DNA from: Longimicrobiales bacterium
Lineage (GTDB): Bacteria > Gemmatimonadota > Gemmatimonadetes > Longimicrobiales > Gaopeijiaceae
NCBI GenBank assembly: GCA_028278645.1
Contig: JANQDZ010000001.1
Coordinates: forward strand, 1-37,137
Reading direction: 5' to 3'
Length of the DNA stretch: 37,137 nucleotides
Both the position numbers and the translations under genes were made by a program. Shown here piece after piece: positions 15,392 through 37,092 of this stretch. The notes under the pieces were generated by a model. The model ran no database searches, was not told where the DNA came from, and saw only the letters and a program-made list of their open reading frames with translations. The number at the start of each line of letters is the position of its first letter. The first letter of the stretch is position 1.

Positions 15392-15861
15392 TCGTCTCTC
15401 ACCATTGGATAGAGGATCCTGCCTCTGAACCTTTTCCCATGTTCGGTCCCCTCGTTCGAAGGGTCCAACGCAGGGGAGTTGGTTTGTTGGGGGAAGATGG
15501 CCAAGCGAACACATGATGAGTCCGCATTCCGGGGCCTTCAATCATGCGAGGCCACCCTGGCAACCTTCGATCCGACCATCAGGTCCGGTCTTGGAAATCT
15601 TGGCCACAATCCTCTCTCCGTCCACCCCTTTGTGAATCAAAACCTGGGACGAGGGGACTTCCCAGGCGGGATTATCTACGAAAGCCTGGCCATGGCCCCA
15701 ATGAATCATCGGTCTCCGACTGTCCACTCGAGGTGACACGGAGTATTCTTTTTTTGGGGCACCCTTCGGGCCGGACCCCCTGTGTTTAAGGGTTTTTCCT
15801 GCCGAATACGCTGGCATGGGCCCTGCAAATGAAGAGAGTGGACGACCAGATAGGAGGAAGA
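15392..15861. other. Divergent intergenic region between rho and the Tyr/Gly-rich protein gene
   Basis: About 470 bases if the GTG start of rho is right. It should contain the rho leader on the minus strand and the promoter of the downstream gene on the plus strand. Open frames here lack any recognisable protein content. I see a 7-bp inverted repeat (CCTGGGA ... TCCCAGG, 15643-15666, 10-base loop), but no convincing promoter hexamers or riboswitch. Confidence 0.5.
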
Positions 15862-17499
15862 ATGGTTAAGCGCCTTGTCCCCTCTGCGGCTCTTGCACTA
15901 GCCCTGGCGGCAGCACCGTCGGCTGGCTCCGCACAGCTATCCGCCTCTCTCTCATTTCACATGGGCCTGTTCGACGGCGTCGGGTTGGGACTGGCGGTCT
16001 CCAGCTGGTCTCCCCACTCCATCTTCTCTCCGGGCTTTCAAATCGGGTTTGGGGCTTCGTTTGGTATCGGGCTCGGTGGTAGGTCATATCACGGGTACGG
16101 TCACGGCTATTACGACGACTATTATTACGACGATTATTACTACAACGACCACTACGGCGGGTACTACTACGACGACTACTATTACGATCGCCCATACCGA
16201 CATTACCGCAGGAGCTACTACTCAGGATACAGTCCGTTTTACTACAACTGGTGGGGGTATTCGAATCCCTGCTGGGACTACTGGGGACCGTTCGGGTACA
16301 CCGGGTTCCGGTTCAGCCTCGGGTTGGCTTGGAACTACTATCGGAGACCGGTCTACTTCGATCCTTGGTGGGGGAGCGTCGGTTATTATGCCCGCTGGCG
16401 TCCGGCATGGGTCTATGATCCCGGTTGGTATTACTACTACGATCCTTACTGGGTGACTCCCGGTTACTCGAGAGTCGCCTACGTGGCGCCTGCGAGAGGG
16501 TACATCTATTCCAACGCTCCACACGCTGGCTACCGAGGCACCAGCTACAAGGAGAACCCGCGACGAGCGGTAGCTTCCAACCCGACGGCCACAGCTCGGG
16601 GATCGAGTTCAGCCCTGGCTGACCGGCAACCCGCGGCTACCAGGACTGGCCGGGTGGCGCAGCCCGGAACCGAAAGCCTTGGCACCCGGCGGACCGCCAG
16701 GTCAGGCACCGCCACCGGGACGGACCGGAGCGGGACTCACCGGGTGGCAGCACCCAGCCGGGGCACAGCTTCGACTGGCACGGCCAGGCCGAGCACCTCG
16801 ACCCGGAGTGGCGAGACCCCGAGGGTCGCCAGGACACCCACGACTCGGTCGCCCGGCGCCAGGGTTCCGTCGGCGCGGGTACCAGACCGTACGCCAACCT
16901 CTCGGGCTCCGGCAGCAAGGACCCCAAACTCCCGGACTCCATCGGCGAACCTCCAGAGTCGTGCCCGGACGACAAGGACCCCGGCAGCCAGGGCTCCGTC
17001 CAACCGGACGTCCTCTGCTCGGACCTCGGCTGCTCGTACCCCAACGACCAGGACGCCGTCGGCTAGGGCTCCGTCAAGGACACCGTCTTCAATGACACCA
17101 AATCGGGCGCCCACAGCCCGGACTCCCTCCGCCCGGACGCCGAACAGGAGTTCCTCTGGCAGGGCGCCTTCCGCATCGGCTCCACGAGCCCGGACTCCGT
17201 CAGCCAGAGCGCCGGTTACGAGGACACCGAATGCCCGCGCGCCGTCCCGGACTCCCACGGCAAGAGCGCCTTCCCGGGCACCTTCCGGCGGGGCCAGGAG
17301 CGCTCCCCAGAGGGCGCCCCAGCGCTCGCCAACCGTCCGGGCGCCGTCTGGTAGCTCCAGGAGTGCGCCAAGGGCCCGGCCGCCTTCTGGGGGATCCCGG
17401 AGCGCCCCAAAGGCCGCACCGCGGTCGTCCGGTGGTAGCAGGTCAGCGCCGAAACGTACCTCGCCCCCCAAGGTCAGGAGGCCCGGCGGCGGACTTTAG
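15862..17499 (+). CDS. Secreted Tyr/Gly/Trp-rich protein with long Arg/Thr/Pro/Ser/Ala polybasic tail
   Basis: I start at ATG 15862 (AGGAGG 4 bases upstream, followed by a signal peptide ending near GSAQ) rather than the in-frame ATG 33 bases earlier. The 545-residue protein has three parts. Residues 30-75 are glycine-rich (IGFGASFGIGLGG). Residues 75-225 are extremely aromatic, with runs such as DDYYYDDYYYNDHYGGYYY, followed by W/Y/P-rich sequence. From about residue 230 to the end it is low-complexity Arg, Ala, Pro, Ser and Thr with near-repeats like RTPSARAP and RTPNARAP and only a handful of acidic residues. I recognise no domain. The tail suggests a disordered, strongly cationic region that could bind polyanions at the cell surface. 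The stop overlaps hutI tail-to-tail by 4 bases. Confidence 0.75.
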   Translation: MVKRLVPSAALALALAAAPSAGSAQLSASLSFHMGLFDGVGLGLAVSSWSPHSIFSPGFQIGFGASFGIGLGGRSYHGYGHGYYDDYYYDDYYYNDHYGGYYYDDYYYDRPYRHYRRSYYSGYSPFYYNWWGYSNPCWDYWGPFGYTGFRFSLGLAWNYYRRPVYFDPWWGSVGYYARWRPAWVYDPGWYYYYDPYWVTPGYSRVAYVAPARGYIYSNAPHAGYRGTSYKENPRRAVASNPTATARGSSSALADRQPAATRTGRVAQPGTESLGTRRTARSGTATGTDRSGTHRVAAPSRGTASTGTARPSTSTRSGETPRVARTPTTRSPGARVPSARVPDRTPTSRAPAARTPNSRTPSANLQSRARTTRTPAARAPSNRTSSARTSAARTPTTRTPSARAPSRTPSSMTPNRAPTARTPSARTPNRSSSGRAPSASAPRARTPSARAPVTRTPNARAPSRTPTARAPSRAPSGGARSAPQRAPQRSPTVRAPSGSSRSAPRARPPSGGSRSAPKAAPRSSGGSRSAPKRTSPPKVRRPGGGL

Positions 17500-18745: not shown

Positions 18746-20431
18746 TCAGCTCCCTCGCCCACGGGAATCCGGCATGGGGATTTTGAGTCCCTCGGACCGA
18801 GCGGTGTCCCAGGCTTCCTCATAGCCGGCGTCGGCATGCCGAACCACCCCGAGGCCGGGATCGTTGGTCAGAACCCTTCTGATCCTCTCCCCCATTTCGG
18901 GAGACCCGTCGGCCACAAGGACCTGCCCAGCATGAAGCGCGTTGCCGATCCCGACGCCCCCGCCGTGGTGGAATGACACCCAACTGGCCCCCGACGCCGT
19001 ATTCAGGAGAGCGTTGAGGATGGGCCAGTCGGCAACGGCGTCGGTGCCGTCTTTCATCCCCTCGGTCTCCCGGAAGGGCGAGGCCACTGACCCCGTATCG
19101 AGGTGGTCTCTTCCGATGACGATAGGAGCCGAGATCTCTCCACTCGCCACCAGATCGTTCATAGCCACCCCGAATCGTGCTCGCTCCCCTTGTCCCAACC
19201 AACAGATCCGAGAGGGGAGCCCCTGGAACTGGACTTTTTCCCGCGCCATGCGGATCCAGCGCCCCAAGTGCTCGTCTTCCGGGAAAAGCTCCAGGACGAG
19301 GTCGTCCGTTCGATAGATGTCTTCGGGGTCCCCGGACAGGGCCACCCATCGAAACGGCCCTTTGCCTTCGCAGAAAAGAGGTCGGATATATGCGGGGACG
19401 AATCCGGGATAGGCAAAGGCGTTCTCGAAGCCCGCGTCCAAGGCCATCCCCCGGAGGTTGTTCCCGTAGTCCACCGCAACCGCTCCCATCTCCTGAAGAT
19501 CAACGATAGCCTCACAATGTACCCTCATGGACACCATGGCCCGTTGCACATACTCGTCCGGGTCAGCGACCCGGAGTTCCGCCGCTTCGTCCAGCGAGAT
19601 CCCGGCGGGCACGTACCCGTTAAGGGGGTCATGGGCTGAGGTTTGGTCCGTGACCAGGTCAGGTACGATCCCTCTTCTCGCGATTTCCGGAAAAACCTCC
19701 GCGCAGTTCCCTACCAGGCCCACCGATAGAGGCTCTCGAGCTTCTGTGGCCGAGAGGACCCAATCCAGAGCTTCGTCCAAACTTTCCGTCGCGCGGTCAC
19801 AGTACTCGGTATCCAAGCGCCGCTGGATCCGAGCCGGGTCCACCTCCACCGCCAACATCACGCCGTCGTTGAAGGTGGCAGCCAGAGGCTGGGCGCCCCC
19901 CATGCCACCCAGGCCCCCCGTCAAGATCCATCTACCCGCCAGGCTGCCTCCAAAGTGCTTCTGGGCCATGGAGCCGAAGGTTTCGTATGTGCCCTGGAGA
20001 ATCCCCTGGGACCCGATGTAGATCCACGAACCGGCGGTCATCTGGCCGAACATCATGAGACCGCGACGTTCCAGATCGTGGAAATGATCCCACGTCGCCC
20101 AACGGCCCACGAGATTGGCGTTGGCGATCAGGACCCGAGGCGCATGGGGGAAGGTCTGGAAGACACCCACCGGCTTCCCCGATTGGACCAGAAGGGTTTC
20201 GTCGTCGGCCAGGTCTTTCAGGGTCGCCACGATCGCGTCGAAAGCCTCCCAGTTCCTGGCTGCCTTCCCCTTCCCCCCATAGACGATCAGGTCCTGGGGT
20301 TGCTCCGCCACGTCTGGGTCCAGGTTGTTCATGAGCATTCGAAGAGCTGCCTCCTGCGTCCAACCCTTACAGCTCCGATCTGCGCCCCGGGGAGCCCGGA
20401 TGGTCTTGGGTTCTTTCGACGACATATCCAT
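18746..20431 (-). CDS. hutU: Urocanate hydratase
   Basis: The second step of histidine degradation: urocanate plus water to 4-imidazolone-5-propionate, using tightly bound NAD+ as an electrophile. The 561-residue length is typical. Signatures include [29 protein letters not shown], the NAD-binding stretch [32 protein letters not shown], and near the end [14 protein letters not shown]. It lies between hutH (29 bases upstream) and hutI (2 bases downstream). Confidence 0.97.
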
Positions 20432-20460
20432 CTCCGCAATTCGGTTTGGTTCCTGGTCGT

Positions 20461-22008
20461 TCAGAGATTCGCCAATGCGCCGGTCCGGATCAACTCGCTC
20501 AAAGCCTCGATATCACCCGAAAGGACCCGATCTTCCGAGAGAGGTGGGACCTTTTCTCGGACCACGGCGACACCTCGTTTGACACCTTTTCCGGGCCTTA
20601 GAGGCGCCAGGTCATCGACCGCCTGGGCGGCGCAAAGGAGCTCGATGCCGACGATATGCTCCAGGCACTCCACGGATCTCCGAACCTTCCTCGCGGCGGC
20701 CATGCCCATGGATACGTGGTCTTCCTGGTTGGCGCTCGTGGGAACCGAATCCACACTGGCCGGGTGGGCCAACACCCTCATCTCAGCGAGGAGGTCTGCG
20801 GCCGTGACCTGGGCGATCATGAACCCGCTTTCGATCCCCGGTTCCCGGGTCAGGAAGGGAGCGTGCCCGGAAAGATCGGGGTTGAGAAGGCGTTCGATAC
20901 GACGTTCACTGATGGCGGCGAGATCGGCCAGGGCGATGGCGAGGAAATCCAAGGCTTGGGCCACCACCTGGGCGTGGAAGTTCCCGGCGCTGATGACAAC
21001 CTCCGCCTCCGGCAACACCAATGGATTGTCCGTGGTGCTGTTCGCCTCCACTTGGAGAATCCGCCGGACGTACCCGAAAACCTCCCTCGCCGCACCATGG
21101 ACCTGAGGCATGCACCTTAGGCAGTAGGCGTCCTGGACCCTCGGGTCTCCGAAGCGGTGGGACTCACGGATTTCCGAATCTGCCAGAAGGGCGGTGAGCC
21201 GAGCCGCGGAGGTGCGTTGGCCTTCGTGAGGTCGAACGGCCTGGGCTTCCGGGCGAAAGGCCTCCGGGGTGCCACGGAGTCCTTCCAGTGTCATGGCCCC
21301 GGCCAGTTCGACGGTTTCGAGGACCGTAGCGGCCCGGAGGAAAGCGAGAGTCCCAACTCCAGTGGTGGCCTGGGTCCCGTTGATAAGGGCCAGGCCTTCT
21401 TTCTCTCTCAAGGTGAGCGGCTCCAGCCCCAACTCCTGCAGGACCTCCCAGGTTGGCCGGACGACACCTCGGTACTCCACGTTGCCCTCTCCCAGGATTG
21501 CAAGGGCAATATGTGCCAGGGGTGAAAGGTCCCCGGAGGCGCCAACCGACCCGCATTCCGGAACGACGGGGTGTATTCCTGCATTGAGGAAATCAACCAA
21601 CCTCTGAACCACCACCAGGCGACACCCTGAGTGGCCCCGGGAAAGGGCATTTGCCCGGAGCGTCATGATGGCCCTGACCTCTTCACGGGCCAGGGCCTGG
21701 CCTACGCCGGCCGAGTGGCTCCTGATCAGATTTGCCTGGAGCTTTTCCCTTTTGTCTGGCGGGATCACCACCTCCGCAAGGCGGCCGAATCCGGTCGTGA
21801 CCCCGTAGATCTGGCCCTCCTGATCCAAGAGAGATTCTACGTAATCTCGAGATCGATCGATGGCTACTTCGGCTTCGGCCGAGAGATCGATCTGGATCGC
21901 TGGGTTGTGGGCGACCGCGCCCAAATCCTCCACGGAGAGATCCGACCCGCTCAAGACCACGGGCCTTTTCTCGCTGAGGGGAACGCTATCTTTCATTTCG
22001 CTTCCCAT
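20461..22008 (-). CDS. hutH: Histidine ammonia-lyase
   Basis: The first step of histidine degradation: elimination of ammonia to give trans-urocanate. The 515-residue protein has the Ala157-Ser158-Gly159 triad in [15 protein letters not shown], which cyclises to the MIO electrophile, and the family blocks [35 protein letters not shown] and TTDNPLV. ATG 22008 is taken as start; ATG 21996 is also possible, and neither has a strong ribosome site. It is the first gene of hutHUI. hutG, hutC and a histidine transporter are not adjacent. Confidence 0.97.
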
Positions 22009-23043: not shown

Positions 23044-23664
23044 GTGATCGATGAAACCGGAGCCCAGTTGAAGAGTTCTCCTTCGAAGTCCGATCCGGAC
23101 CCTGGTCTGATCCATCGAGCTCAGACCGGTGATCGAGAGGCCCTGCGGTCCCTCCTCGAGGAGATAGGCCCAGCAATCCGGCAGTGGGCTCTGGCCCATA
23201 CGGGGGACGCCGACGCCGCGGCCGACCTGACCCAAGAGGTCTTCTTGGCCCTTTTGAGGAAGCTCTCAACCTATCGGGGTCAAGCGAAGTTCTTGACCTG
23301 GCTTTTTTCGGTCACGCGAAACCATGCCCTTGAGGAGTGCCGTCGTAAGGCCCGGTATGAGAAGAAGATGAACCGATTGAAGGTGGAGATGGGATCCAAC
23401 AGAAACTCTCCAGCCCAGGACGGATCCGGAATCGACCGCGAGAGGATCGGGAACCTGATCCGGGGTTTCTTGGATGAGCTTCCTGCCCGGCAACGAGAAG
23501 TGTTCCAGCTCTCAGAGTTCCAGGGCCTGAGTTCGCCGGAGGTTGGAGAGATACTAGACCTCGCTCCGGCGTCAGTCCGCGCGGCCCTACTCAAAGCTCG
23601 CCGGTCTCTGAGGCGGATGATCTTGGAGGGCCATCCAGAGTTTGCGGAGGAGTTCCTTTCATGA
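23044..23664 (+). CDS. ECF-family RNA polymerase sigma factor
   Basis: A 206-residue sigma-70-like protein with only regions 2 and 4, as in ECF (group 4) factors. Region 2 reads DADAAADLTQEVFLALLRKL and AKFLTWLFSVTRNHALEECRRK (about residues 57-102). Region 4 reads LDELPARQREVFQLSEFQGL (about 143-162) followed by SSPEVGEILDLAPASVRAALLKARRSL, the helix-turn-helix binding the -35 element. The start is GTG 23044, with no strong ribosome site. The gene overlaps the next one by 4 bases (ATGA), the standard layout for a sigma factor and its anti-sigma. Confidence 0.93.
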   Translation: MIDETGAQLKSSPSKSDPDPGLIHRAQTGDREALRSLLEEIGPAIRQWALAHTGDADAAADLTQEVFLALLRKLSTYRGQAKFLTWLFSVTRNHALEECRRKARYEKKMNRLKVEMGSNRNSPAQDGSGIDRERIGNLIRGFLDELPARQREVFQLSEFQGLSSPEVGEILDLAPASVRAALLKARRSLRRMILEGHPEFAEEFLS

Positions 23665-24137
23665 GGTGCTCAGAAGCCAGGCGGGGGCTCCTGGAAGCCG
23701 ACCGAGTCGATCTCACTGGCCAGGGCACGAGTCCGCTGGCCCAGCACCTCCAGCTCTGTTCCCGATGCCGCTCCATCGCTGACTTCGTGCTGCAAGAGGA
23801 AGATCGGATGGGGGCCCAGATGGCCGAAGCGGTGACGACCCCTGACTTGGATCGCCTCTTGGAAGACGCCCTCGGACCGAGAGCGAAGCCCACCGATCAA
23901 CCCCCCCTCCGACCCCGGACCTCCACCCGCCTAAAGCGAGTGGGATTCTCCCTCATTCCCCTCGCCGCGGCAGCGGCGCTGGCCACTCTGTTCCTCAGGC
24001 CTGACCCGTCCCTCCCGGGTGACCCCTATGCGCCGCCACAACGGACCGCAGGTTTGGATTTGGAGGTGCCGGGCGGCCAAAACGCTGTGGTTTTGAAGAC
24101 AAATGACCCGGATATTACAGTCCTCTGGTTTTTCTGA
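23661..24137 (+). CDS. Putative membrane anti-sigma factor with ZAS-type zinc motif
   Basis: A 158-residue protein coupled to the ECF sigma gene by an ATGA overlap. Near the N-terminus it has H29-x3-C33-x2-C36 (HLQLCSRC) plus Cys3, the zinc-binding anti-sigma signature. One membrane helix follows (GFSLIPLAAAAALATLFL, about residues 95-112), then a short periplasmic tail ending in ILQSSGFS-like coding on another frame and DPDITVLWFF here. By family knowledge it would hold the sigma factor at the membrane until a periplasmic signal arrives. The tail is short (~45 residues), so the sensor may be another protein, such as the next gene product. Confidence 0.8.
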   Translation: MRCSEARRGLLEADRVDLTGQGTSPLAQHLQLCSRCRSIADFVLQEEDRMGAQMAEAVTTPDLDRLLEDALGPRAKPTDQPPLRPRTSTRLKRVGFSLIPLAAAAALATLFLRPDPSLPGDPYAPPQRTAGLDLEVPGGQNAVVLKTNDPDITVLWFF

Positions 24138-24150
24138 TGGAGACTACCGA

Positions 24151-24831
24151 ATGAACCGCAAGACAACGTTCCTGACGCTGGCCTTCATGGTCCTCCTCGC
24201 CGCGGCATGCGACCGCCTCGGGTCCCCGAACTTGGACGTTCAAACCTTCACGCTCGAACACCGTTCTGGGTATGAAGCCGCAGAGCTCATCGAACCCTAC
24301 GTCTTCGGCGATCGTCAGGAAGCGCCTGGGGCTCTGAACGCGACCCATGAGGCCCTCACGGTTCGGGAAACCCGTGACAACCTCGAAAAGATCGGGCGTG
24401 TGTTGGAGGAGTTCGATCAGCCGATACCCGGGATTCGGCTTCGGTTTCAGTTGATCCAAGCGGACTCCTTCCAGGAGCGGGATCCGGCCATCGCCGACGT
24501 GGTGGATGAATTGGAGTCCCTCTTTCAGTTCGAAGGCTACCGGCTGTTGGGTGAGGCTATCGCCCCGGTTGCGGGTGGGACCATGGCCGGAGAGAACTTT
24601 TCCCAGCGGTTCCTGGGAGTCGGGAACCCAATCACCGTCGAGGCGCGAGCCTTCGTGACCGCGTCAGGTACGGTTCGCCTGGACCCGGTCCAACTGAGCG
24701 ACCGCTTCGAGACTCTCATGGAGGCGACAGTCTCCATCACCCCCGGCCAGACCATTGTCATCGGTGGCACCCAGACGTACAGGGACCAGCAATCCGTTCT
24801 GATTATGACCGTGCGGGCCGAACTAGAATGA
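24151..24831 (+). CDS. Lipoprotein with secretin-like (N0/N1-type) domain
   Basis: I start at ATG 24151 (GGAGA about 7 bases upstream, then a lipoprotein leader with AAAC at the cleavage site) rather than an in-frame ATG 48 bases earlier. The 226-residue protein reads like pieces of a secretin or type II/IV pilus secretin: LDVQTFTLEHRSGYEAAELIEPYV is N1-like, spanning about residues 27-50. EALTVRETRDNLEKIGRVLEEFDQP is the typical end of such a domain, and ITPGQTIVIGGTQ resembles the secretin-domain VxxGQTxVIGG motif. It is far too short to form a secretin channel. It follows the sigma/anti-sigma pair by 13 bases, so it may be a regulated partner or periplasmic input. Confidence 0.7.
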   Translation: MNRKTTFLTLAFMVLLAAACDRLGSPNLDVQTFTLEHRSGYEAAELIEPYVFGDRQEAPGALNATHEALTVRETRDNLEKIGRVLEEFDQPIPGIRLRFQLIQADSFQERDPAIADVVDELESLFQFEGYRLLGEAIAPVAGGTMAGENFSQRFLGVGNPITVEARAFVTASGTVRLDPVQLSDRFETLMEATVSITPGQTIVIGGTQTYRDQQSVLIMTVRAELE

Positions 24832-24971
24832 TAGAAAATCCTTGCCAAGAAGGGCGGGAGGGGGCTCATGGGTCCGATTGACACCTTTTGGGTTCCCGCC
24901 GGGGTCATTAAATTGGATCGTTCTCAAGAGAAAAACGGATCCACGACACGCCCCGAATGGTGGAGATGGAT

Positions 24972-25241
24972 ATGCAGGATGGCCCAATCGGCTCCTGGCC
25001 GGAAGTTGAGCGTCGGCAAGGGGGCGATCGGAGGGTGAACCCTGAGCGGAGGAGCGGCCGGGATCGGCGATCCGGCGAGGAGCGCCGGTTCATGGATCGG
25101 CGCCAGGCTCGTGCCGGGTCTCAGATCCAGGCATTGACGCCGGATCGAAGGTCCGACACGCCCCGGCGTTCTCCCCTACCCCGACGGGTCGCCGGGAGGC
25201 GATCGAGGCTCGACCGCCGCCTCCAGCCCATGTTCCCCTAG
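24972..25241 (+). CDS. Arg-rich DRR/ERR-repeat mini-protein 1
   Basis: An 89-residue protein from ATG 24972, which has GGTGGAG 6 bases upstream; ATGs at 24957 and 24966 are less well placed. About one residue in four is Arg, arranged in repeats of the form (E/D)RR-S/Q-G-x-(D/E)RR, for example ERRSGRDRRSGEERRFMDRR. No signal peptide, membrane helix or known domain is visible. It shares FMDRR and TPDRRS with the second mini-protein downstream, so the two are paralogues. A strong intrinsic terminator lies 43 bases after the stop, supporting a real plus-strand transcript. Function unknown; a nucleic-acid- or membrane-binding peptide is only a guess. Confidence 0.6.
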   Translation: MQDGPIGSWPEVERRQGGDRRVNPERRSGRDRRSGEERRFMDRRQARAGSQIQALTPDRRSDTPRRSPLPRRVAGRRSRLDRRLQPMFP

Positions 25242-25283
25242 ACTCGTGTGCGTGGGGCCTGAAACCTCCGCTGCCGTGAAAAG

Positions 25284-25317
25284 AAGAGAGCCGGTTTCCG
25301 GCTCTTTTCTTTTTTTT
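25284..25317 (+). terminator. Rho-independent terminator after mini-protein 1
   Basis: AGAGCCGG pairs with CCGGCTCT around a TTT loop, with further A-T pairs at the base, followed by TTTTCTTTTTTT. The long U-tract points to the plus strand as the transcribed direction. Confidence 0.9.
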
Positions 25318-25391
25318 GTCAGGGAGGATTGACCCGGCAGAGGTTCTGGTGAAACATTTGATTATAGCCATAGCCCTCGGAAGAGGTTTAT

Positions 25392-25625
25392 ATGCTCCAA
25401 ATGGACATCCGGGAGCGACGCTCGGGCTTCGACCGGCGGACGCTCTCGGACCGTCGTGCCTTTATGGATCGTCGATCCACTCCGGACCGCCGCAGTGAGG
25501 TGGTATCGGTTGCCGTGGAGCGGCGCATACGGGACCGCAGGTCGGGAGTTGACCGCCGGGTGGCGGAAAGGAGAGTGACCCCCGACCGTCGGACCGGTGA
25601 GCAAAGGAGCATCATCCTGCACTAG
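25392..25625 (+). CDS. Arg-rich DRR/ERR-repeat mini-protein 2
   Basis: A 77-residue protein from ATG 25392, with GAAGAGG 5 bases upstream. It is built of the same short repeats as mini-protein 1: RERRSGFDRRTLSDRRAFM, then MDRRSTPDRRSE, DRRSGVDRRVAERR and TPDRRTGEQR. Arg makes up about 30 percent, balanced partly by Asp/Glu two or three positions away. No export signal or known domain. It also has its own terminator 18 bases after the stop. Antisense frames here also show RRS-DRR runs because CGG/CCG codons read similarly on both strands; ribosome site and terminator order favour the plus strand. Confidence 0.6.
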   Translation: MLQMDIRERRSGFDRRTLSDRRAFMDRRSTPDRRSEVVSVAVERRIRDRRSGVDRRVAERRVTPDRRTGEQRSIILH

Positions 25626-25642
25626 GGGCCGAGGAGCGAAAG

Positions 25643-25678
25643 AAAGAGCCCAGGCCGGTCTGCGGCCCGGGCTCTTTT
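25643..25678 (+). terminator. Rho-independent terminator between mini-protein 2 and the DUF35 gene
   Basis: AAAGAGCCC pairs with GGGCTCTTT, extended by an inner GGCCG/CGGCC stem, followed by TTTTG-TTT. Because the outer stem is A-rich on its left side, it can also act on the minus strand, where the DUF35 gene ends 26 bases away. Confidence 0.85.
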
Positions 25679-25703
25679 GTTTGGTTTGGGGGTTCTGTGA
25701 GCC

Positions 25704-26093
25704 TTAGGCAGGTACCCCTTTGTGCCCATAACAGAGGATCCCGCTGTTCCCCTCCTTCTGGATCAAGCGGAATTCCAGGTCCAGCTCCATCCCGGGTCCC
25801 ACTGTGGCCGGATCACAATCCACGACCTGGGTCATGAAGCGGGCCCCCTCGGGCGTCTCGACCACTGCCATGGCATACGGGGCCTCGTTCAGGAACTCAT
25901 CCGGGGGGACGTGAATCACGGTCGAGGTGACCACAGTTCCCTTCGGAGAAAGGTTCACCTTTTCCATCTCCTGGCTTCTGCAAGCCGGGCAAACCTTCCG
26001 TGCCGGATACAGGACCTTCCCACAGTCGGAACACTTTCCGGCCTCCAGGCGATAACGAGCCGGGATTTCTCGATGGTAACGCGGGCTCGGCAT
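25704..26093 (-). CDS. DUF35 / Zn-ribbon OB-fold protein (acyl-CoA-binding partner of thiolase and HMG-CoA synthase)
   Basis: A 129-residue protein from ATG 26093 (AGGGGG 7-8 bases upstream; a TTG two codons earlier overlaps the thiolase stop). An N-terminal helix YHREIPARYRLEAGKC is followed by a rubredoxin-like zinc ribbon C-S-D-C ... C-P-A-C, then an OB fold (GTVVTSTVIHVPP, VVETPEGARFMTQVV). In archaea, DUF35 proteins of this build bridge acetoacetyl-CoA thiolase and HMG-CoA synthase and form the shared CoA-binding tunnel. Its position right after the thiolase, with HMG-CoA synthase upstream, supports the same role. Confidence 0.9.
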   Translation of the reverse strand: MPSPRYHREIPARYRLEAGKCSDCGKVLYPARKVCPACRSQEMEKVNLSPKGTVVTSTVIHVPPDEFLNEAPYAMAVVETPEGARFMTQVVDCDPATVGPGMELDLEFRLIQKEGNSGILCYGHKGVPA

Positions 26094-26095
26094 GA

Positions 26096-27244
26096 TCAAA
26101 CCCCCTGGAAGATGTGGACAACGGAGCTCGCGCCAGAGCCCCCCATGTTCTGGGCCAAGCCGATCTCGGCCCCTTCGACCTGTACCTCCCCGCCCTCACC
26201 CTTAAGCTGCTCGATGACCGTCACGGCCTGGGCGATCCCGGTGGCGCCTACCGGATGGCCCTTCGACTTCAGACCCCCACTGACGTTGACCGGGATCTTC
26301 CCGCCGAGGTCGGTTACGCCATTCTTGGCCGCGTCCTTCCCGGCTCCCTTCTCCACGAACCCCAGAGCTTCGCAACAGCAGATCTCTGCGATGGCGAAAC
26401 AATCGTGGACCTCTGCCACGTCGATGTCATCTGAAGTCACGCCAGCCATCTCGTAGGCCCGGTTCCCGGACAGCTCCACGACATCCAGGTCGGCCGGATC
26501 GGCACGATCGGCCAGAGTCAGGCTAGAGGTCGCCGCGCCGCTGGCCAGGATCTTCACCGGCTTATCCGTGAACTCACTCGCTCGATCCAGCGGACATAAA
26601 AGGATCGCTGCAGCCCCGTCAGTAACGGGGGAGCAGTGGAGGAGTCGAAGGGGTTCCGCCACGACGCTGGAGGTCATGACATCCTCCAGTGACATCACCC
26701 GCCTGAACTGAGCGTGGGGGTTCTTGGCTCCGTTCCGGTGGGCTTTGACGCTGACCCAGGAGAGATCTTCTTCGGTTGTTCCATACTTCTCCATGTGGGC
26801 CCGAGCGATCATGGCATACAGCCCGGGGAAGGTCACACCGTAGTACACCTCCTCTTCCTGATCCGAAGCCGTGGCGAGGACCCCAGTGACATCTGCGCCG
26901 TCGTTCATTTTCTCAACGCCTGCCGCCAGGACCAGATCGCTCATCCCCGAAGCCACCTCCAGATAGGCCGAGCGTAGCGCCATCCCGCCTGAAGCGCAGG
27001 CAGATTCGACCCTGGCAGCCGGCACTCCGCCTAGCCCCAGATGGTCAGCCATGAGCGGGCCAAGGTGTTCCTGCCCCACAAACTGACCTCCTGACATGTT
27101 TCCTACGTATATGGAATCGATGGAATCCGTCCCTGCGCTCTTGATAGCGGAGAGGGCCGCTTCCACGAACAAGTCCCGGAGGCTCATATCCCAGAGCTCC
27201 CCGAACTTGGTCATCCCCACTCCAATCACTGCCACCTCTCGCAT
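26096..27244 (-). CDS. Acetyl-CoA C-acetyltransferase (thiolase, archaeal/SCP2-like type)
   Basis: From ATG 27244 (AGGAGG 6 bases upstream) the protein has 382 residues; the open frame extends 15 codons further without support. Features of a thiolase: active-site Cys83 in [20 protein letters not shown], and the C-terminal [14 protein letters not shown] with the catalytic His. The sequence resembles the archaeal and SCP2-like thiolases rather than the bacterial PhaA/AtoB type. It would condense two acetyl-CoA to acetoacetyl-CoA. It overlaps or abuts the DUF35 gene and follows HMG-CoA synthase by 65 bases, giving the full three-protein set. Confidence 0.9.
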
Positions 27245-35271: not shown

Positions 35272-37092
35272 ATGGACCCCATCGTCGAGTGCGTACCGAA
35301 CATCTCCGAGGGCCGGAATCCCAATGCCATCAAGGAAGTCACAGACGCCATAGAGGCGGTGGCCGACGTCCGCCTCCTGGATGTTGATCCAGGCGACAAG
35401 ACCAACCGCACGGTGATCACTTTCGTGGGCCCACCAGAAGCGGTGGAGGAGGCGGCCTTCCAGACGGTGAAGAAGGCGGCTCAGGTCATCGACATGTCCG
35501 GCCACGAGGGCGAGCACCCTCGCATGGGGGCTACCGATGTGGTGCCCTTCGTTCCCGTTTCAGGCGTATCCATGGAGGATTGCGCGGAGATGGCCCAACG
35601 GGTCGGGGCTCGAATTGGGGAGGAGTTGGGCATCCCGGTTTATCTCTATGAAAACGCCGCCTCCCGGCCAGAACGTCAGAATCTCGCGAAGGTCCGGGCC
35701 GGCGAGTATGAGGGTTTGAAGGAGAAGCTGGCCGATCCCGAATGGGCTCCCGATTTTGGCCCCGCCGAGTTCAACGCCCGGACCGGCGCCACCGCCGTAG
35801 GTGCTCGAGAGTTCCTGGTAGCCTACAACATCAATCTCAACACCACCGATCGCCGGTACGCAAACGAGATCGCCTACGTCCTGCGCGAACGGGGGCGATG
35901 GAAGCGGACCGGGAACACCGATCCCTTCTATTACAAGGGAGATGTGGTGGATTTCGCCGGGGACGGCACATACCCTTGCGGGCCCTGTGACTACGTCGGG
36001 TCTTCCTTCGAAGACCTCGAAGCCCACTACCGGGAGGTCCATGGAGGTGACCTCAGGGCACGGTACGAGGCCCTGGAAATCGATCCGGAGAACCCTGAGG
36101 GCCATGTCTTCACGGACGGCGCATTCAAAGAGGTGAAGGCCATCGGCTGGGTGATCGACGAGTACCAGCGGGCCCAAATCAGCATGAACCTGACCAACTT
36201 CAAGGTGTCCTCCCCTCACGAGGTCCTGGAGGCCGCCAGGGAGGCAGCCCGAGATCGAGGGATCGGCATAACGGGATCTGAGATCGTGGGACTGATCCCC
36301 TTCCAGGCCATTCACGAGGCCGGCCGCTACTACCGGAAGCGGATGATGAAGTCCCCCGGGATCCCCGTCCCTGATCTGGTGGAGACAGCCATCCAGTCCA
36401 TGGGCCTGCGAGATGTCGCGCCATTCGATCCCGGGGAGAAGGTTCTGGGGATGCCTCTGGTGGATGGCCCCCTCGTCCTTAAACCCACGTTCGATTTTGT
36501 GGACGAGGTGTCCCGTGACACGCCGGCCCCCGGCGGCGGGTCGGTCTCGGCTTTGGCCGGAGCCCTCGGAGCCGCCTTGGGAGCCATGGTCGCGAATCTG
36601 TCTGTCGGGAAAGGTGAGTACGATGACCGGTACGACCAGCTTTGCCAGTTGGCGGATGCCGCCCAGAAGGTGAAAGACGCCCTGGTCCGCGGCGTCGATG
36701 AAGACACGCAGGCTTTCGACGAAGTCATCGCTGGGATGCGCATGCCGAAGGACACGCCGGAGGAACGGTCGGTCCGGGCGAAAGCAATCCAGGAGGGCTA
36801 CAAGGCTGCCACAAGGGTTCCGTTGGCCACGGTCGAACAGTGCCGGGACGCCCTACGCATCTGTTTGGAAATGGTCAAAATGGCTCCCGAGGAGATGATG
36901 AGTGACGTGGGGACCGGCGCGCTGGTAGCTCGGGCCGGGCTCATCGGGGCAGCCTACAATGTCCGAATCAATCTCAAGAGCATCGACGACGAGGCCTTCC
37001 GAAGTGAAATGCGGGAGAGTCTCGGCGAACTGGTAGAGGAGGGTGAGGGGCTGGCGAAGGAAGTAGAAGCCGTCATGGAGAAAGCCCTATGA
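35272..37092 (+). CDS. ftcD: Bifunctional glutamate formimidoyltransferase / formimidoyltetrahydrofolate cyclodeaminase with Cys/His insertion
   Basis: A 606-residue FtcD-type enzyme. The N-terminal half transfers the formimino group of formiminoglutamate to tetrahydrofolate: ECVPNISEGRN, GHEGEHPRMGATDVVP with catalytic-type His82, YLYENAA and GWVIDEYQRAQISMNLTNF. The C-terminal half (from about 405) is the cyclodeaminase: FVDEVSRDTPAPGGGSVSALAG. Thus it completes histidine breakdown to glutamate plus methenyl-THF. Unusual is a loop at residues 205-285 containing C236-x2-C239-x12-H252-x4-H257, the spacing of a C2H2 zinc finger. The start has GGAAGGA just upstream. It follows citF by 30 bases and overlaps the next gene by 4. 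Confidence 0.93.
   Translation: MDPIVECVPNISEGRNPNAIKEVTDAIEAVADVRLLDVDPGDKTNRTVITFVGPPEAVEEAAFQTVKKAAQVIDMSGHEGEHPRMGATDVVPFVPVSGVSMEDCAEMAQRVGARIGEELGIPVYLYENAASRPERQNLAKVRAGEYEGLKEKLADPEWAPDFGPAEFNARTGATAVGAREFLVAYNINLNTTDRRYANEIAYVLRERGRWKRTGNTDPFYYKGDVVDFAGDGTYPCGPCDYVGSSFEDLEAHYREVHGGDLRARYEALEIDPENPEGHVFTDGAFKEVKAIGWVIDEYQRAQISMNLTNFKVSSPHEVLEAAREAARDRGIGITGSEIVGLIPFQAIHEAGRYYRKRMMKSPGIPVPDLVETAIQSMGLRDVAPFDPGEKVLGMPLVDGPLVLKPTFDFVDEVSRDTPAPGGGSVSALAGALGAALGAMVANLSVGKGEYDDRYDQLCQLADAAQKVKDALVRGVDEDTQAFDEVIAGMRMPKDTPEERSVRAKAIQEGYKAATRVPLATVEQCRDALRICLEMVKMAPEEMMSDVGTGALVARAGLIGAAYNVRINLKSIDDEAFRSEMRESLGELVEEGEGLAKEVEAVMEKAL

Follow-up and report, generated by a model that had tools for sequence, protein, structure and literature searches.

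The window analyzed here is a stretch of 37,137 nucleotides from a Longimicrobiales bacterium, in which two short tandem reading frames, ORF1 and ORF2, encode proteins built largely from evenly repeated Arg pairs. The locus comprises the following features:

23044–24831, plus strand: genes for an ECF sigma factor, a putative anti-sigma factor and a weakly secretin-N0-like lipoprotein, directly 5′ of ORF1
24962–24965, plus strand: ribosome-binding site GGAG of ORF1, 6 bases 5′ of the ATG, in 3/3 genus members
24972–25241, plus strand: ORF1, an 89-aa Arg-hexad protein (Arg 28%, no Lys)
25278–25318, plus strand: T1, a rho-independent terminator 3′ of ORF1 (17-pair hairpin, U-tract)
25328–25386, plus strand: conserved region upstream of ORF2 with TTGACC and GTGAAACATTTG, presumed to provide its promoter and its ribosome site (GGAAG)
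25392–25625, plus strand: ORF2, a 77-aa Arg-hexad protein (Arg 30%, no Lys)
About 25637–25683, both strands: T2, a bidirectional terminator shared by ORF2 and the convergent zf-ChsH2/OB gene
25704–26099, minus strand: zf-ChsH2/OB gene, convergent with ORF2, with T2 in between

An earlier note on this DNA had described two tandem Arg-rich paralogous frames, each with a ribosome site, and both are genuine tandem paralogous genes: ORF1 contains 8 and ORF2 contains 10 (D/E)RR triplets, the step from one RR to the next is exactly 5 or 6 residues in 9 gaps of ORF1 and 8 gaps of ORF2, and not one of 100,000 composition-preserving shuffles per protein reaches the observed number of triplets or of 5/6 gaps. 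The complete RR spacing series, 6,6,6,6,5,16,6,6,5,6 in ORF1 and 6,6,6,6,11,5,6,5,6 in ORF2, place both proteins within the definition of the Arg-hexad family discussed below, and their GC content at codon position 3 is in line with that of the adjacent genes. The start of ORF1 was assigned to position 24972 because the arrangement GGAG-N6-ATG is kept in all three members of the genus, whereas the in-frame ATGs located 5′ of it at 24957 and 24966 are not conserved. For ORF2, GGAAGAGG lies 5′ of the start.

Each of the three genomes of the genus, G001 and G002 among them, retains the pair, followed by the same downstream neighbors: the zf-ChsH2/OB gene and, farther away, a c28 gene, with an additional thiolase call in G001. 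A check for purifying selection, which the earlier note had recommended, yields dN/dS values of 0.09–0.23 for ORF1 in comparisons within the genus and of 0.15–0.27 for ORF2, the latter only from comparisons with a finite, unsaturated dS. Between 21 and 24 Arg residues are kept per genome pair, 12–17 of them via a different codon. Purifying selection and the synonymous recoding of conserved Arg together lead us to conclude that it is the protein that is selected. We also considered coding on the opposite strand, where the near-palindromic repeat codons again give an RRS-like reading, and rejected it: The antisense frame has a stop in G001, and the conserved starts are found on the plus strand.

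The strong terminators that had been reported behind each frame are likewise present, with folding energies of −24.9 kcal/mol (z −6.5) for T1 and −31.2 kcal/mol (z −5.0) for T2 on the plus strand. The earlier description needs one correction: T2 is bidirectional (minus strand −29.5 kcal/mol, z −5.6) and serves the convergent zf-ChsH2/OB gene, too. Nor is the AAGAGCC/GGCTCTTTT stem special to the two genes: It is found at T2 and in three other places of the genome (5 matches, one place being matched on both strands). At the position of T1, G001 has a hairpin with an unrelated stem sequence (−21.8 kcal/mol, z −5.4), T1 is absent from the sister genome G002, and one species of the genus is devoid of both terminators, the stems varying among species. 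Because T1 is replaced or absent in sisters, T2 operates in both directions and the stem recurs in the genome, we regard T1 and T2 as ordinary terminators. These observations bear on the earlier suggestion that the functional products are the RNAs themselves, i.e., two short terminated transcripts in which the frames are incidental. A strong terminator 3′ of each ORF and the conserved upstream region of ORF2 would suit such products, but the stem sequences are unconserved, a search of Rfam found nothing for the locus, and both the selection at the amino acid level with its recoded Arg and the interrupted antisense frame in G001 speak for a protein; this reading is mostly refuted and retains only a very slight probability. 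The conserved upstream region and T1 make it plausible that ORF2 would be expressed separately from ORF1. The pattern TGA(A/C)AC(C/A)TTT precedes both ORFs; a common ECF-sigma promoter was rejected, given that the spacing to the −10-like element, as read from the sequence, is 15 versus 13 and that the full pattern has a single occurrence in the genome.

In agreement with the earlier statement that the proteins have no known domain, Pfam-A and NCBIfam contain no family matching ORF1 or ORF2 even at E ≤ 1, and no PilZ domain is present in either. The best PHROGs match of ORF1 (0.012, to an unknown family) is at chance level and ORF2 has none; the ORF2 sequence is without a match among PDB chains at E ≤ 10, and a literature search on the motif returned nothing relevant. 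Homologues with a conserved frame do exist: A profile built from 12 members, which by construction include members of the searched phylum, matches at least 54 of 395 phylum genomes and at least 28 of 138 genera at E ≤ 1e-5 (counts approximate). The search covered two phyla, the organism's own and a control, the latter accessed via an actinobacterial genome and locus; in the control, none of 198 genomes among the candidates scored was positive (count approximate). Matches in Streptomyces (L073) and Planosporangium (L074) were not counted, since both are without a stand-alone hexad gene and the former is a repeat tract within a longer frame. BLAST found no relatives on plasmids or phages, some of which the low-complexity filter may hide. 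The proposal of an undescribed small-gene family has thus stood up, and with regard to the libraries searched the Arg-hexad small proteins can firmly be called one.

Members of this family are almost all stand-alone frames of approximately 80–130 aa. Across 36 aligned members, 4–6 (D/E)RRxxx units are followed by a short hydrophobic stretch (e.g., TPVAVERR) and 4–6 further units, the RR spacing being 6 in 219 gaps and 5 in 82; because most of the 36 have a central gap of 11, the 5+6 register runs on across it. Arg accounts for 30% and Lys for 1% of the residues, and net charge ranges from +7 to +18 in 72–95 residues. Within the six-residue units, the first position after RR is Ser in 40% of cases, which is a 6-fold enrichment, the second is Gly in 46%, and D/E precedes the next RR in 81%. 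An AlphaFold2 model from the 36-member alignment gave no fold (pLDDT 63, pTM 0.13), which is suggestive of disordered proteins, low confidence not being proof of disorder.

Such properties recall a general nucleic-acid binder, that is, a disordered Arg-rich RNA/DNA chaperone or a nucleoid- or ribosome-associated protein whose genomic neighbors are incidental. The high Arg content with almost no Lys, the positive net charge and the foldless model would fit this explanation, as would the variability of the neighbors from family to family. However, acidic residues amount to about half of the basic ones and stand just before each RR, which is unusual for a plain binder, and a core role in the nucleoid is difficult to reconcile with patchy presence, only 26 of 121 genomes of the organism's own family being positive. 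Further evidence on this point comes from the gene context. The own family includes seven genera, not equivalent to seven independent events because the linked genomes share ancestry, in which the hexad gene lies directly behind a gene for a PF00999 Na+/H+ antiporter with a C-terminal PF00027 cNMP domain, on the same strand. The identity of the antiporter was established by a Pfam run in five of these genera and by BLAST cluster in the remaining ones. The first RR unit follows approximately 80–270 bp downstream, and in one case, at a contig end, the hexad gene abuts the antiporter. In several of the seven genera, a PF02254/PF02080 TrkA-type K+ channel also precedes the antiporter–hexad pair, and in other g6 genomes the hexad gene is located directly behind the K+ channel alone.

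Moreover, the module occurs fused to other domains: G005 encodes a TrkA_N protein that ends in an ERR tail, G255 and G147, from two genera, combine an N-terminal hexad module with a Response_reg receiver, and in G322 the module is joined to DUF4388. The receiver–hexad fusions of two genera are located at L155 (2626–3441) and L156 (2555–3427, minus strand). At L152 (2085–2702), a zinc-ribbon-like N-terminus, with a Pfam score under the cut-off, is in frame with a hexad module. The same-strand linkage to one transporter type and the fusions with receiver and TrkA_N proteins argue against incidental neighbors, and we consider the general nucleic-acid binder rather unlikely, while keeping it as a serious candidate; binding of nucleic acid or polyphosphate as such is a possible, putative property of hexad proteins.

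The neighbors differ in another well-sampled family, where a Ser/Thr kinase gene (a cluster in seven genera, mostly divergent) and an FHA gene (a cluster in five genera) adjoin the hexad gene, and where, at four loci (L133, L136, L137 and L141), another hexad gene lies no more than a few kb from the first, beside kinase/FHA genes. This arrangement, together with the enrichment of Ser directly after RR, could mean that the hexad protein is a kinase substrate and FHA adaptor: The adjoining Ser/Thr kinase, a basophilic one, would phosphorylate RRS/RRT sites, which the FHA protein would recognize, and phosphorylation would switch the charge of the chain. We deem this improbable, since the window lacks the kinase/FHA context, which was likewise not observed in the own family, and since the Ser enrichment is present also in genomes outside the kinase/FHA context. 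Taken together, the ion-transport, kinase/FHA and receiver-fusion contexts favor a role in signaling and ion homeostasis over one at the ribosome.

At the window locus itself, the hexad genes have no adjacent transporter. The gene order of G021 matches that of the window, with HAL, cytochrome c, the antiporter–cNMP gene, one hexad gene and thiolase, except that the place of the antiporter–cNMP gene is taken in the window by the sigma, putative anti-sigma and lipoprotein genes; it looks as if one cassette had been swapped for the other. G021 and G351 each have a single hexad copy, whose N-terminus (T/F/S)WP(A/E)VERR is shared with ORF1, and for this reason we take ORF1 as the positional orthologue. 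A second tandem copy was seen in this genus only, so that ORF2 has the look of a genus-specific tandem duplicate. The genome of the window is without a close copy of the antiporter (best 33% identity over approximately 380 aa) and yet keeps two hexad genes, which indicates that the antiporter is not the sole partner. Elsewhere in the window, the regions 18746–22008 and 35272–37092 have the look of histidine-degradation genes (urocanase and HAL; formiminotransferase/cyclodeaminase-like at 35272), and several genera of the own family have HAL and urocanase in the vicinity of their hexad locus. A 556-aa protein encoded at 15829–17499 has a low-complexity C-terminal half of Ala/Pro/Arg/Ser/Thr repeats (TPSARAPS-like).

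Hexad proteins are probably small regulators. More specifically, we favor, tentatively and with somewhat less than even confidence, that they are disordered, polyanion-contacting accessory regulators of ion-transport and signaling proteins. ORF1 and ORF2 would then be small cytosolic disordered proteins in which (D/E)RRxxx units at a 5/6 step flank a hydrophobic stretch. Judging from composition, the evenly spaced Arg pairs may contact a polyanion, either acidic phospholipid head groups or a nucleic acid or nucleotide ligand; this step is of low specificity, because any Arg-rich disordered protein is expected to bind polyanions. The chain would act on a partner protein, in trans when encoded by its own gene and in cis when fused, as linkage and fusions suggest. 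In the own family, a monovalent-cation transport module composed of the RCK-type K+ channel and the Na+/H+ antiporter with its cNMP domain probably takes this part; for the other well-sampled family, the partner would be the Ser/Thr-kinase/FHA signaling module. A more far-reaching version is that the hexad is a phylum-wide ligand-reading module, whose Arg pairs would be the binding sites for a nucleotide second messenger or a membrane phosphate and which would pass the signal on to the partner, either as a free subunit (antiporter/K+ channel operons) or fused (receiver, TrkA_N, DUF4388); to this version we assign a low probability.

In GC-rich genomes, it is easy to write off short Arg-rich frames as noise; the hexad family is under amino acid selection and has a rigid register. 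Since it moreover has no match in the searched family libraries and comes with named partners, its role is directly testable. If regulation of ion transport or kinases proves true, a separate small disordered subunit would be doing what is otherwise done by the tails of larger proteins.

Among known systems, SR-type, protamine-like and histone-H1-like tails resemble the hexad proteins in being Arg-rich and of low complexity, with Ser beside Arg pairs and an expected binding to polyanions. In contrast to these tails, the hexad proteins have a fixed 5/6 register around a central hydrophobic stretch and an acidic residue before most RR, are bacterial, are linked to transport and signaling genes and match no family. 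PilZ c-di-GMP receptors (RxxxR) also have an Arg motif in signaling proteins; the hexad proteins differ from them in having no PilZ domain and no folded barrel but many repeated RR pairs. Another parallel is KtrB, for which it is proposed that a short disordered segment opens KtrAB by coupling the RCK ring with the membrane (PMC12059179). Like this N-terminal disordered region, which is proposed to act via the membrane, the hexad protein would be a short disordered segment linked to an RCK/TrkA-type channel. The KtrB segment is part of the channel, whereas the hexad protein is mostly the product of a separate gene and consists of Arg hexads; we claim no sequence relation between the two, and a link of the hexad protein to gating is putative.
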